36,371 nt of DNA from a virus. Numbering within the stretch: position 1 is the first letter of the stretch; each line of letters starts with the position of its first letter. Location of the stretch: the IMG/VR virus record IMGVR_UViG_3300045286_000051, positions 1 through 36,371 of that record; one strand, 5' to 3'. Below, piece by piece: positions 4,328 to 33,455 of the stretch. Position numbers and translations under genes: made by a program. Below the pieces are notes generated by a model. The model was not told where the DNA came from. It saw nothing but the letters and a program-made list of their open reading frames with translations, and ran no database searches.

Positions 4328-4902
4328 GCTGCGCAACCCAGTGAATGCATGCCGATCACCTCGTCTCTTGTGGCGATCAGTTGCAGCGACTCGTGCGCCC
4401 AGTAGACCATGCCGCTCGTCCCATGCCCGGAGTTTCCGCGCAGTGGGGGTGATCGGTGGTTCTCGGCTTTCACGAGCACGTCGAGCGAGCCGCCGAACAA
4501 TCCGACTGGACTCCGTTGCGGGCATCCGAGCGCAGCATCCGAAGACGACGGCATGTCGTCCAGGTGCAGGAACAACAGCCACACTGGCAGTTGCGAAATC
4601 CGAGAAACGTGGATGTAGTCCTGATAGTGCGAGAGATCGATGCCAGTTGTCCATCGTCCGGTAATGCGATGCCACGTAAAGACGGACTTCCGCTTCGCCT
4701 CGATCCACATGATTCCTCGCGACGTGAAGGCCATGACATCAGGCGCTGCGTGTCTCGATCCATGAGTGAAGAATTGCGGCCCTTTGCCATGCGATTTTTC
4801 GATCTCGTACGCGGGAATGATGGCATTGCCGCGCGCCATCAGCCAATTGGCAATAAGGCTCTCTGCAGCCCTGCCGATCCTCAGATTTTCGGCGAATGTC
4901 AT
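4324..4902 (-). CDS. PD-(D/E)XK-type nuclease-like protein
   Basis: 192 residues. An N-terminal helix (ENLRIGRAAESLIANWLM) is followed by a nuclease-like core with PD at about 54-55 and EAK at about 68-70 (APDVMAF, then GIMWIEAKRK), the classical D-(E)xK spacing of Holliday-resolvase and restriction-like folds. A downstream region is Trp/His-rich and ends in strands. The most likely role is processing branched or foreign DNA during replication. Start and stop are fixed by ATGA overlaps with both neighbours. The catalytic motif is visible; substrate specificity is not. Confidence 0.6.
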   Translation of the reverse strand: MTFAENLRIGRAAESLIANWLMARGNAIIPAYEIEKSHGKGPQFFTHGSRHAAPDVMAFTSRGIMWIEAKRKSVFTWHRITGRWTTGIDLSHYQDYIHVSRISQLPVWLLFLHLDDMPSSSDAALGCPQRSPVGLFGGSLDVLVKAENHRSPPLRGNSGHGTSGMVYWAHESLQLIATRDEVIGMHSLGCAA

Positions 4903-5792
4903 GCTGGCATAACCACGAAACCACGCGTAGCGAATTGGACGCGAAACTCGGCCACATTGGAGCCGAAATAGAAGAATGCCTGTCCCTGCGTAGCCGAGGC
5001 TTTGTCTCCATTCGGAGACCCGAATGCAATGCGTCCTCGAGTGAAACAGATGGCCGAACAGGCGTTTGCCGCACGATGAAACCATGCCGTATCGGTGTAG
5101 TTGTGCGTCAGCACGATGCCCTCCGTCACCCGGCCGGACGTGTATTCCGTGATCATCTTCTCGACGAATTGCCCGATGGCCGGCTGGGCGTACGGCGGGT
5201 TGAGCCACACGCGCCCGTGCCATTCCTGTTCGAGGCCGTTCTCGTCCTGCGTGAAGATGCGCTCGGCCCTCACGGTTTCGTTCGCCTGCTCGCTCGTCGC
5301 CGGGTCCAGATCGATCGAGCCGAGCACGGCCCTCGCCAGATCGACATCGGCCGCCGGCGTGTACCACTCGTTCTCGCCCGAGCCCTGCGCTCGATGGTTG
5401 TGCGCCAAGGCAGCGACTTTCCGCGCCGTGTCCACGAACTGCTGAACGTACTTCGGCTCATCGGCCAGCAACTTGCGCCACCGGGAAACCTGCTGGTGGC
5501 TGATGCTCGTCATGCGCTCGGCCTCGGCTGCCGAAATCGAGCCCCGGTCCGCGCTCGATTTATTCCCCCCACGGCCAGGTGATTGCCGAACCGTTACCGT
5601 GGCGTCCCACCATTCCACATGCTCGCGCTGCTCGGCGACCTTGTGCTCGGCGGCGCGCTCGAACTCGTCCCACAGTCCGAGTCGTGCCGCTCTCTGCATG
5701 CGCACATCCCACAGATCCTGGCGCGTTCTGGTCTCGTCTGCCCGAAAGACAGCGAGCTCGCCGCGCTCCGTTATCGCAAGATCGTTCTTCAA
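4899..5792 (-). CDS. Phage DNA N6-adenine methyltransferase (Dam-like)
   Basis: 297 residues. The C-terminal half matches the phage Dam family (DNA N-6-adenine-methyltransferase): EWYTPAADVDLARAVLGSI at about 142-160, DLDPAT just after, and the catalytic NPPY at about 198-201. This methylates adenine in DNA using S-adenosylmethionine, usually to protect phage DNA from restriction. The N-terminal half has a ParB/HTH-like segment (ISHQQVSRWRKLL, about 97-109). I chose the TTG start at 5792 because a GGAGG lies four bases upstream; GTG at 5831 lacks one. A large inverted repeat lies immediately upstream. Confidence 0.8.
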   Translation of the reverse strand: MKNDLAITERGELAVFRADETRTRQDLWDVRMQRAARLGLWDEFERAAEHKVAEQREHVEWWDATVTVRQSPGRGGNKSSADRGSISAAEAERMTSISHQQVSRWRKLLADEPKYVQQFVDTARKVAALAHNHRAQGSGENEWYTPAADVDLARAVLGSIDLDPATSEQANETVRAERIFTQDENGLEQEWHGRVWLNPPYAQPAIGQFVEKMITEYTSGRVTEGIVLTHNYTDTAWFHRAANACSAICFTRGRIAFGSPNGDKASATQGQAFFYFGSNVAEFRVQFATRGFVVMPA

Positions 5793-5808
5793 ACGTCCTC
5801 CATGCGAA

Positions 5809-5886
5809 CGAGCCCCCTCGACTGTCCCCACGCTGTGGCAGCAGCGTTCCGGCTAGGCCGGCAATGGGGACATGCGAGGGGGCTCG
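5809..5886. repeat. Large inverted repeat upstream of the methylase gene
   Basis: Arms 5809-5830 and 5865-5886 are reverse complements over 22 bases with two adjacent mismatches. The 34-base loop holds two further small hairpins: GCTG-tgg-CAGC (5832-5842) and CCGGC-tag-GCCGG (5849-5861). In leftward mRNA the structure would end eight bases before the Shine-Dalgarno (5797-5801) of the methylase. It could be a translational control element, an operator or part of an origin. The structure is seen; its function is not known. Confidence 0.6.
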
Positions 5887-5943
5887 ATGCTAGGCCGCGC
5901 CGCTGCCACGGCCAGGGAGTCATTGTGCGCTCAGATCGCGGCG

Positions 5944-6263
5944 AAGAAAAGCCCCGAGTCAGAACGTCGTCGGTTGAGCGATGCCGCGCAAAATGGCCAT
6001 GAAGCCCCGCTGCAGGTCGGTGGCGCCGATGCTCACCCACCGCTGATCGAGCGCCGGCAGCGCTCCGGGCAGGGTCGGCGCGGTGCCATTCGGACTTGCC
6101 AATGGGTGCGCGCGCAGTTTGGCGACCCAGGCGCCGCATTGCTCCGCGAGGGCTTTGCCCTCGTTCATCAGGGCAACCTCGGCCTCGCTGAGTTGTCGGT
6201 AGCCAGTGATCTTGGGCTGCGTGAACGTTTCCATATGATTCCTTTAGTCAAAGAAAAGCCCCG
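5944..6263. repeat. 13-bp direct repeats flanking acb2
   Basis: AAGAAAAGCCCCG occurs at 5944-5956, just after the acb2 stop, and again exactly at 6251-6263, just before its start. Only the repeat ends belong to this feature; the interval between them is the acb2 gene. On the minus strand each copy reads as GGGGC followed by a T-rich tract, so both may be remnants of terminators. Direct repeats around a single accessory gene suggest a recombination junction used in gaining or losing it; that is inference. Confidence 0.6.
5959..6234 (-). CDS. acb2: Acb2-family anti-CBASS cyclic-nucleotide sponge
   Basis: 91 residues, with the signature of the Acb2/Tad1 hairpin family at both ends: KITGYRQLSEAEVALMNEGK near the N-terminus and RWVSIGATDLQRGFMAILR plus a final AxP motif at the C-terminus. 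Acb2 proteins form hexamers that bind cyclic di- and trinucleotide signals and so stop CBASS abortive infection. The middle (APTLPGALPALD) is a Pro/Ala-rich linker between the two helical parts. It lies in the early leftward operon, as expected for a gene needed soon after infection. A 13-base direct repeat flanks it (5944-5956 and 6251-6263). Recognition is by motif memory, not by a search. Confidence 0.8.
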   Translation of the reverse strand: METFTQPKITGYRQLSEAEVALMNEGKALAEQCGAWVAKLRAHPLASPNGTAPTLPGALPALDQRWVSIGATDLQRGFMAILRGIAQPTTF

Positions 6264-6277
6264 GCGCGGGGGCGCCG
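6250..6277 (-). terminator. Candidate intrinsic terminator/attenuator before acb2
   Basis: On the minus strand a G+C-rich hairpin (GCCCC 6273-6269 pairing with GGGGC 6262-6258; an alternative 6-bp stem is CGGCGC with GCGCCG) is followed directly by TTTTCTTT (6257-6250). This is a standard rho-independent layout in the leftward direction, between the gene at 6339-6533 and acb2. It would reduce but probably not abolish transcription into acb2 and the replication genes unless an antiterminator acts. Confidence 0.55.
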
Positions 6278-6284
6278 AGGCAAG

Positions 6285-6326
6285 GCCCTGCCGGGAGGAG
6301 ATCAGCACTGACGTGCCGGGCAGGGC
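6285..6326. other. Second hairpin in the acb2 leader
   Basis: GCCCTGCC (6285-6292) and GGCAGGGC (6319-6326) are perfect inverted repeats around a 26-base loop, just upstream (in leftward transcription) of the candidate terminator. The two together could form an attenuator. This is seen as sequence symmetry only. Confidence 0.4.
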
Positions 6327-6338
6327 AGCAGGATTGTG

Positions 6339-6533
6339 TCACGACATCCCTCCAAGGGCCTCGATCGCCCGCTCCATGTAGACGTAGGCATCGTTCGTTG
6401 CATACGGATCGGACTGAAGCGCAGCCCTGGCACGTCGGAGGAGGTCGATGGCCTCGTCGATCGCGCAGACCGTCGCCTCGTACTCCTCGTCGGCCTCTTC
6501 GGCCAGCATTTCGGGCGTGGTCATCGGAACCAT
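6339..6533 (-). CDS. Small acidic hypothetical protein
   Basis: 64 residues, starting MVPMTTPEML. Very acidic in the first half (EEADEEYE) and helical throughout, with DLLRRARAALQ and a C-terminal YVYMERAIEALGG. No family is recognised. The start at 6533 overlaps the cro-like gene by 13 bases and has a weak GAGG; a longer in-frame start would run deep into cro. Placement right after the Cro-like regulator in the immediate-early leftward operon suggests a regulator, antiterminator or host-inhibitor role, without direct evidence. Confidence 0.5.
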   Translation of the reverse strand: MVPMTTPEMLAEEADEEYEATVCAIDEAIDLLRRARAALQSDPYATNDAYVYMERAIEALGGMS

Positions 6534-6673
6534 TTCGGCCTCAGTTCTCTCAGCTGATACAACCTCAGCGGCGGGATGCGCCGCCACCCATGCACCGCCT
6601 GCCGGGTCAGTCCGAGGATGCGCGCGAGCTCGGCCTTGCTGCCGGCGCGCTTGATGGCTGTCTGAAGATGCAT
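6521..6673 (-). CDS. Cro-like transcriptional regulator
   Basis: 50 residues. Residues 3-45 match Cro-type HTH proteins: TAIKRAGSKAELARILGL, then TRQAVHGWRRIPPLRLYQL, where QAVHGWR is the DNA-recognition helix and IPPLR is the usual continuation. It should bind operators in the divergent promoter region (6979-7094) and shut down early transcription. The start is set by TAATG overlap with the upstream gene. No CI partner is visible. At 50 residues it is short but within the range for phage Cro proteins. Confidence 0.75.
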   Translation of the reverse strand: MHLQTAIKRAGSKAELARILGLTRQAVHGWRRIPPLRLYQLRELRPKWFR

Positions 6674-6972
6674 TACTTGCCCTGCGCCACCAACCGTTCG
6701 AGCGTTACTCTCGATGTCAGCTCGCCATACTCCGAGATCAGGCATTCGGTTGGCCCGACATCTCGATGCCACTGCACGACCTTCGTGGCGCGATATCCGA
6801 TTTCGTCGCCCTTGAATTGGATCACCACATCCGACAAGAGCCCGGCAGGAACAATCAACTCTCCAGCCAAGCCGTGATCGACCCACACCGCGAGCGTCGC
6901 ATGCTCTGGGTTGCGATCCAGCACCCGCAGCGAAGTGATAGGGGGCCGAAGACGGTAGTAGGTTGTGCTCAT
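6673..6972 (-). CDS. Hypothetical protein, first gene of the leftward operon, probably leaderless
   Basis: 99 residues starting MSTTYYRLRPP. It looks beta-rich, with a helix near the end (LTSRVTLERLVAQ), and I recognise no family. There is no Shine-Dalgarno; the ATG at 6972 lies six bases beyond the -10 box (6979-6984), so the mRNA probably starts at or next to the ATG. Lambda cI is also translated from a leaderless message, but this protein shows no HTH, so I do not call it a repressor. It is the first product of the leftward early promoter. Confidence 0.55.
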   Translation of the reverse strand: MSTTYYRLRPPITSLRVLDRNPEHATLAVWVDHGLAGELIVPAGLLSDVVIQFKGDEIGYRATKVVQWHRDVGPTECLISEYGELTSRVTLERLVAQGK

Positions 6973-6978
6973 GCGCCG

Positions 6979-7008
6979 ATGATGCGCCCACTGCGCCGGC
7001 CCTGTCAA
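6979..7008 (-). promoter_or_regulatory. Leftward early promoter
   Basis: On the minus strand TTGACA (7008-7003), an 18-base spacer, then CATCAT (6984-6979). The -35 is perfect and the -10 is weak but identical to that of the divergent rightward promoter. The start codon at 6972 would be at the transcription start. It drives the Cro, Acb2 and replication genes. Confidence 0.65.
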
Positions 7009-7065
7009 GTCAAGTTCCCCTGACGTCGACTATCATGTGCGGACTGGCGATAGCGTAAGGTAAGG

Positions 7066-7094
7066 TTGACAGGCTGCGAGTCCTGGCGCATCAT
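7066..7094 (+). promoter_or_regulatory. Rightward early promoter
   Basis: TTGACA (7066-7071), a 17-base spacer, then CATCAT (7089-7094). It shares both the TTGACAGG start and the GGCGCATCAT -10 region with the leftward promoter, so one regulator probably reads both. The interval 7009-7065 between the two -35 boxes contains small dyads (GACGTC; CTATC with GATAG), candidates for the Cro operator, none of them strong. Confidence 0.65.
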
Positions 7095-31734: not shown

Positions 31735-32433
31735 ATGGCAACAGCAAAGAGCGCGACCCCGACAGGGGCGCATGTTTCAATCACGCCGCCAGACTTCGGG
31801 CATCTCGAACTCATGATCCGCGGCACTGCGCCGCTGGTGATCGAGCGGTTCTCGAAGAAGGCCGAGCTCATGGCCAAGATGGAGCAGGGGTCGACCGCGA
31901 AAGGCAAGCGGGAGCGCACCGCTCGGGACTACGAGCGGGACGCCGAAGAGGCGCGCTATCGCAGCGCGGATGGCGGATGGGAGGGCATCAACGCCGCGGC
32001 CTTCCGGGCCGCGATGATCTCGGCATGCAGGCTCGTCGGCTACAAGATGACGATGATGAAGATGTCCGTCTTCATCGAGGCCGACGGGTTCGACGTCTTC
32101 GAAGGCCTGCCGCTCGTCCGGATCTACGGTGAGTCCGAGACCTTCACGGCGCACACCCGGAACGCGACCGGCGTCGTCGACGTGCGGGCGCGGCCGCAGT
32201 ATCGAGACTGGGCCGCGAAGTTGCGGATCGAATACGACAAGTCGCAGTTCAATGCCATCGACATCGTGAACTTGGTTTCGCGCGTCGGGCTGCAAGTCGG
32301 CATCGGGGCAGGACGCCCGGATAGCAAGGCATCGGCCGGTTGTGGCTGGGGGACGTTTGTCCTTATCCACGATGCCGAAGAGGAGGCCATTCGGGCCAGG
32401 TTCGATATCAAACGCGGAAAGGCAATGTCATGA
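31735..32433 (+). CDS. Cassette protein of unknown function (possible RNA-binding fold)
   Basis: 232 residues starting MATAKSATPTGAHVSI. The N-terminal strand DFGHLELMIRGTAPLVIERF, a basic segment (KMEQGSTAKGKRERTARDYE), the helix NAAAFRAAMISACRL, and near the C-terminus a Gly-rich loop (VGLQVGIGAGRPDS) before a strand (WGTFVLIH). Proteins of this outline occur in other phages as hypothetical. The ordering strand-helix-strand with a late G-rich loop reminds me of RAMP/Cas7-type RNA-binding folds, but this is an impression. It lies between the two GGCNN arrays and is coupled to the next gene by an ATGA overlap. Confidence 0.7.
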   Translation: MATAKSATPTGAHVSITPPDFGHLELMIRGTAPLVIERFSKKAELMAKMEQGSTAKGKRERTARDYERDAEEARYRSADGGWEGINAAAFRAAMISACRLVGYKMTMMKMSVFIEADGFDVFEGLPLVRIYGESETFTAHTRNATGVVDVRARPQYRDWAAKLRIEYDKSQFNAIDIVNLVSRVGLQVGIGAGRPDSKASAGCGWGTFVLIHDAEEEAIRARFDIKRGKAMS

Positions 32434-32954
32434 ACAGGTATGCACGAGTCAAGGCCGAGATCAAGCGCGAGCTCGATCGTCTGGCCGATTTGAACAACGG
32501 CCTGCGACCGTCCGAAGTCGTCGAGGCAGCGACGCCGAAGAAGTCCCCGCTGCACGAAGAATTCGAATGGGACGACAAGAAGGCCGGGCACGAATTCCGG
32601 CTGTTGCGTGCGCGGCGGCTGATCCGCATCGCCATAACTGTCGACACGAGCCCATCGGGCGATGAAGTCGTCACTGATCGGTACGTCCACGTTCCGCCGA
32701 TCCAGGCCGAGCAGGACAATCCGAAGGCCCGCGAGGGGGTGTACCTGCGGATGAGTGACGTCGTGAAGAACGACGATTACTTTTCCCGCGCGCTCGCGGC
32801 CCTCGTCGCCAACGTCAACCGAGCTCGCGCATCAGCGCAGGAGCTGCGCGACGCAGCGACGCATAGCAGCGCCGATCCGGACCGCATGGCGAGGATCGCG
32901 ATGGCCATCACGGCATTGGAGACCGCTGGCGCGGCGGTGGCCGCGCTCCACTGA
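32430..32954 (+). CDS. Cassette protein of a widespread phage family, unknown function
   Basis: 174 residues starting MNRYARVKAEIKREL. A conserved-looking core, PSEVVEAATPKKSPLHEEF, then EWDDKKAGHEFRLLRARRLI, is typical of a widely seen phage protein family (SPLH...FEWDD). The C-terminal third is helical and Ala-rich. Its start overlaps the previous stop by ATGA, so the two are a pair. It ends directly before array 2. Function is unknown; the paired occurrence suggests the two act together, perhaps with the arrays. Confidence 0.7.
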   Translation: MNRYARVKAEIKRELDRLADLNNGLRPSEVVEAATPKKSPLHEEFEWDDKKAGHEFRLLRARRLIRIAITVDTSPSGDEVVTDRYVHVPPIQAEQDNPKAREGVYLRMSDVVKNDDYFSRALAALVANVNRARASAQELRDAATHSSADPDRMARIAMAITALETAGAAVAALH

Positions 32955-32960
32955 GCGAGG

Positions 32961-33455
32961 AGTGGCACGGCAAGCCAGGCAGGCTAGGCCCGGCTTGGCG
33001 CGGCGTGGCCGGGCATGGCCAGGACTCGCAAGGCCGGCAGGACCGGAGTGGCGCGGCAAGGCTAGGCCTGGCATGGCGGGGATCGGCGCGGACCGGAACC
33101 GCAAGGCCGGCAGGCAGGGCCTGGCATGGCGCGGATTGGCGGGGCTTGGCATGGCGCGGCAAGGACTGGAATCGCAAGGCCGGCAGGCGTGGCAAGGCAG
33201 GGCTCGGCTTGGCAGGGTGCGGCGTGGAACCGCAAGGCAGGCAGGCTCGGACAGGCGTGGCCAGGATGGGAGCCGCAAGGCAGGCAGGCTCGGACAGGCG
33301 GGGCCCGGCGCGGCGCGGACCGGAATCGCAAGGCAGGCGAGGCACGGAGAGGAATGGCGGGGCGTGGCTTGGCCAGGAGAGGAACCGCAAGGCAGGCTAG
33401 GCTTGGCTCGGCGCGGCGTGGCGGGGCTTGGCCCGGCCCGGACAGGCACGGCAGG
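32961..33455 (+). repeat. GGCNN pentamer array 2 with anchor sequence
   Basis: About 495 bases of GGC-containing pentads on the + strand fill the non-coding interval between the gene ending at 32954 and the convergent Mor-like gene ending at 33459. An anchor, CGCAAGGC, lies at 33027, 33100, 33173, 33231, 33274, 33327 and 33386 (starts), so 73, 73, 58, 43, 53 and 59 bases apart. All but the last gap leave remainder 3 on division by 5. Around it the consensus is GGAAYCGCAAGGCMGGCAGG, in which two four-base steps (GGCM, GGCA) shift the register by two. GG every five bases (GGN3) allows two-tetrad G-quadruplexes along the whole array. Confidence 0.85.

Follow-up and report, generated by a model that had tools for sequence, protein, structure and literature searches.

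Does a short minus-strand reading frame of an environmental phage encode a sponge for cyclic-nucleotide alarm signals of the Acb2 type, and what does its presence say about CBASS in the hosts of that phage? The frame lies in an IMG/VR virus contig, whose 36,371 bases are referred to here as the window (Table 1). An earlier note on this DNA had called an anti-CBASS acb2 gene at 5959-6234, which proved exact: the frame is intact, with an ATG start and a TGA stop (window 6234..5959, minus strand), and encodes 91 aa. The N- and C-terminal family signatures named in the same note were both found in the product, as KITGYRQLSEAE..LMNEGK and DQRWVSIGATDLQ.GFMA..RGIAQPTTF, respectively.

Table 1 Features in and around the acb2 gene of the window.
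Feature	Position	Strand	Evidence or remark
Dam-type DNA N-6-adenine methyltransferase, downstream neighbour	4899..5831	minus	PF05869 3.9e-16; phrog_111 1.2e-41
acb2 gene, 91 aa, predicted Acb2-type cyclic-nucleotide sponge	5959..6234	minus	PF24729; 8h2j; 7uq2 profile; Foldseek 8h2x; dN/dS
Ribosome-binding-like AAAGGA	6235..6245	minus	Direct sequence reading; few nt before the acb2 ATG
Terminator-like hairpin, 10 bp, 9 G-C, then TTTTCTTT	6258..6281	minus	Separates acb2 from the small gene upstream
ORF, 82 aa, function unknown, upstream neighbour	6339..6587	minus	No Pfam or PHROG match
Frame with Cro/YdaS-like HTH regulator in the C-terminal part, residues ~105-150	6521..6991	minus	PF15943 2.1e-7; phrog_409 3.7e-7

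Reading frame and family

The acb2 product matches the Pfam family PF24729 (Acb2_Tad1_hairpin) over the full profile (1-58) with an E-value of 1.3e-13 and 51.3 bits against a curated cut-off of 27 bits, so the HMM search that had been proposed as a check came out in favour of the family. It also matches phrog_717, a family of unknown function, and PADLOC gave no model for it. When the product was used as a phmmer query, the crystallised Acb2 proteins 8h2j and 8ixz were found at approximately 2.6e-11, with no other credible match beyond these two. A profile built from 35 relatives reached 8h2j at 2.5e-24 and the T4 Vs.4/Acb2 protein (7uq2) at 1.5e-3, the T4 relation being reached through the profile only. 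The 35-sequence alignment contains 13 invariant columns (R13, L15, N24, K27, R65, W66, I69, G70, T72, Q75, M79, R83 and A86), and all 13 residues are present at the aligned positions of 8h2j in the phmmer alignment.

That the frame is spurious or decayed, as its overlap with a 169-aa antisense ORF (5872-6381) might suggest, is scarcely conceivable in view of the match to a curated profile, the at least 149 viral relatives, the intact length and the ribosome-binding-like site; AGGA- or GGAG-like sites also precede the start codon in most acb2 relatives. Pairwise NG86 comparisons with approximately 40 relatives gave dN values of ~0.15-0.33 and, where computable, dS values of ~0.64-3.7, corresponding to dN/dS ratios of ~0.06-0.38. 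We take these low ratios as evidence for purifying selection on acb2 and hence for the minus-strand frame being the real gene, the antisense ORF notwithstanding. A chance or artefact ORF is refuted by the conservation.

Predicted fold and ligand site

The AlphaFold2 monomer model of the product (pLDDT 84.4, pTM 0.67) is a hairpin of two long helices, residues 17-41 and 64-86, with loose ends of low confidence (66 at the N-terminus and 54 at the C-terminus), and the short N-terminal helix of Acb2 is absent from this prediction. Foldseek placed Acb2 chains from 8h2x and 8h2j at ranks 1-6, all with E < 1e-3 (8h2x at 1.8e-4), followed at ranks 7-9 by three T4 Vs.4 chains (7uq2). The TM-scores of these matches are moderate (0.53-0.66) and the rmsd values are 4.7-6.0, which we attribute to the loop and the ends.

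Since PF24729 spans the hairpins of both Acb2 and Tad1, and Tad1 thus has the hairpin family in common with the acb2 product, one might think of a protein of the Tad1 type, acting against Thoeris by sequestering gcADPR. Tad1, however, carries an additional N-terminal antiparallel beta-sheet before its two helices (PMC12043709), whereas the acb2 product is predicted to have no such sheet, being only 91 aa long with ~16 residues preceding helix 1. In addition, the sequence and fold matches are all to Acb2, with no Tad1 structure among them, which leaves the Tad1 reading very improbable. Membership of Tad1 was rejected on this architecture, the sheet being missing from the AlphaFold2 model, and we conclude that window 5959-6234 encodes a hairpin-only member of a known family, Acb2-type and not Tad1-type.

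Among the closest known systems is 8h2j, the Acb2 of Pseudomonas phage PaP2 (attribution in PMC11722364). The 8h2j/8h2x/8ixz Acb2 (p26) is likewise hairpin-only, with ~90 aa, the 13 invariant residues and the same N- and C-terminal motifs, but only ~35-40% of its residues are identical to the acb2 product, and its inter-helix stretch differs in sequence from the proline/glycine-rich loop found here. Its Y11 and K26 correspond to Y12 and K27; K26 of 8h2j, with which K27 aligns, is presumably a ligand contact. The T4 Acb2 (Vs.4, 7uq2) shares the fold, although identity in the structural alignment is below 20%. For the T4 protein it has been reported that Y8 is required for dinucleotide binding, which is disrupted by Y8A, and that F82C diminishes binding and abolishes activity (PMC12657218), while T68M lowers binding (PMC12657230). 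In the profile alignment Y8, T68 and F82 correspond to Y12, T72 and A86 of the acb2 product, so that both the tyrosine and the threonine of the dinucleotide site are conserved in it. The alanine in place of F82 is not contradictory because 8h2j, a proven binder solved with 3',3'-cGAMP, has an alanine there as well. The Acb2 identity proposed earlier is thus borne out by the profile match, the predicted fold, the relatives and the conserved ligand residues.

Ligand range varies from one Acb2 homolog to another, and the protein could be an Acb2 by descent that acts mainly against cA3 signalling (that is, type III CRISPR or NucC-type CBASS) or another nucleotide instead of against cyclic-dinucleotide CBASS. 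The di- and trinucleotide sites of Acb2 are separate and the affinity is higher for trinucleotides (PMC12043709); the subclade is marked by EGKALAEQCGA in helix 1, instead of EIKAxGxELG, and by a longer inter-helix loop, and CBASS was not enriched among carriers (see below). On the other hand, the kept Y12 and T72 and the match of every invariant column to cGAMP-bound 8h2j speak against such a shift, which we consider unlikely. The inter-helix region ranges from almost nothing to ~30 residues among the relatives. It is less likely still that, in the EGKALAEQCGA subclade with its variable Pro/Gly-rich inter-helix loop, the ligand range has shifted, for instance towards trinucleotides, so as to dodge decoy-nucleotide guards (such as Panoptes) or disarm the type III CRISPR of the hosts.

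Our preferred reading is that acb2 very probably makes an Acb2-type sponge, and that its product, judged by homology, very probably sequesters cyclic di- and trinucleotides; this function is assigned with high confidence. By analogy with the family, the protomers would form a hexamer that binds cyclic dinucleotides where protomers meet head to head, and cyclic trinucleotides at the ends of the trimer-interface channel, and the alarm signals would be held without being cut. CBASS effectors and cA3-using type III CRISPR effectors would then stay off during phage replication. Acb2 has been suggested to be capable of blunting type III CRISPR signalling with cA3 as well (PMC12043709).

Surroundings and mobility of acb2

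The acb2 gene lies in a same-strand run (7008 to 57) that contains the Cro/YdaS-like regulator and, downstream of acb2, the Dam-type methylase, a frame with primosomal-protein matches and a DnaB-like helicase, so the earlier placement in an early operon was fair. Exonuclease VIII and a Bet-like annealing protein are encoded across the divide from this run. The position among regulatory and replication genes suggests that acb2 may be expressed early in the lytic cycle. Co-transcription is not assured, as a terminator-like hairpin, whose stem was computed at -21.9 kcal/mol (z -2.5 over 56 nt), immediately precedes acb2, which for this reason may need read-through or a promoter of its own; the hairpin could also lower acb2 expression. 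It was not found upstream of 33 acb2 relatives. The gene is immediately flanked by an exact 13-nt direct repeat, CGGGGCTTTTCTT on the minus strand, at 5944-5956 and 6251-6263, the only two copies in the window, and this repeat could be an insertion scar or a pair of terminator tails.

Several other elements of the window were observed. A 22-nt inverted repeat with 91% complementarity (5809-5886; arms 5809-5830 and 5865-5886) is found just downstream of acb2 and overlaps the start assigned to the Dam methylase ORF, whose true start may lie further in. Where the leftward run of genes meets the rightward one (6979-7094), each strand carries a promoter-like site; the two point in opposite directions and have the same hexamers (TTGACA/CATCAT). 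On the plus strand, two genes of unknown function (31735-32433, phrog_4652, and 32424-32951, phrog_15946) interrupt the leftward terminase and head genes. A GC-rich, repetitive-looking stretch at ~32960-33440 yields GRARR-type repeat ORFs in more than one frame, and its blastn matches to Mycobacterium phages look like low complexity.

At least 149 viral contigs hold relatives of acb2, with full-length identities reaching 82%, and further relatives were found in 201 phage records (all below 60% identity; those among the relatives listed are annotated as hypothetical), 54 plasmid records, mostly from Klebsiella and mostly ~110 kb for the best listed, and 11 bacterial genomes. Relatives from Azonexaceae (69% identity), Aromatoleum (62%), Ideonella (57%) and a Klebsiella plasmid (55%) have the same termini as the acb2 product, but their loops are very variable in length and their neighbours are different. 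Many Klebsiella plasmids, mostly of ~110 kb and with relatives at ~52-55% identity, are probably phage-plasmids. One viral contig of 41,993 bases carries two similar, non-identical Acb2 copies at opposite ends (L023 and L024), reflecting either a duplication or the assembly of two strains.

Within the available flanks, only a handful of the 91 loci that bear a relative have a tested neighbour in common with the window. Near the close relatives we found genes for portal, terminase, DNA methyltransferase, primase, DNA polymerase and helicase, and the acb2 neighbours in annotated phages are equally scattered. Among 23 contigs with a terminase related to that of the window, only one has a PF24729 gene, although several of the others are 37-48 kb long. 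The terminase-sharing phages available for an empty-site comparison had no recognisable homology to the early region of the window, so that no empty site could be shown. We infer that acb2 behaves as a mobile single-gene cassette, accessory and exchanged alone; it looks like a freely exchanged cassette.

Acb2 carriage and host CBASS

The earlier note had further concluded that the hosts of this phage carry CBASS, which we found unsupported: the record comes without a known host, and in most carriers of near relatives no cyclase was detected. Five models were applied to the 11 genomes that harbour the nearest prophage copies, and a CBASS cyclase was confirmed in two, Alcaligenaceae CGII-56 and Pseudomonas cerasi, in each case adjoining a 2TM effector. 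In two bacteria that also bear an Acb2 relative, a CBASS operon pairing a CD-NTase with a 2TM (Cap15-like) effector was seen (L093 5603-7140 and L098 4521-6285).

A sample of 399 genomes from the order of Aromatoleum was searched with the union of two cyclase models. Eight of these genomes match PF24729 (seven over the cut-off) and 23 have a cyclase, and none of the eight carriers is among the 23; with an expected overlap of only ~0.5, this zero excludes nothing. The Pfam models SMODS and SAVED lacked the sensitivity needed for a verdict on CBASS: SMODS fell short of its cut-off on a cyclase scored at 1.8e-143 by PADLOC, and SAVED gave no match in any control. An apparent enrichment with the model PDLC00794 (2 of 11 nearest carriers versus 4 of 200 genomes) was set aside because the model had been picked after matching one carrier, and because one carrier is outside the order. 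An association of Acb2 with CBASS at the population level is neither shown nor excluded by these tests, which are weak. The presence of Acb2 does not show CBASS in the hosts of the phage, nor does CBASS follow from it for any one host.

The lesson for host biology is thus a negative one: from an anti-defence gene of a phage alone, the corresponding defence cannot be read into the host. For the family, whose members usually go by "hypothetical protein", the annotation of acb2 is sound, though of a familiar kind, and gives an environmental phage a well-supported Acb2.
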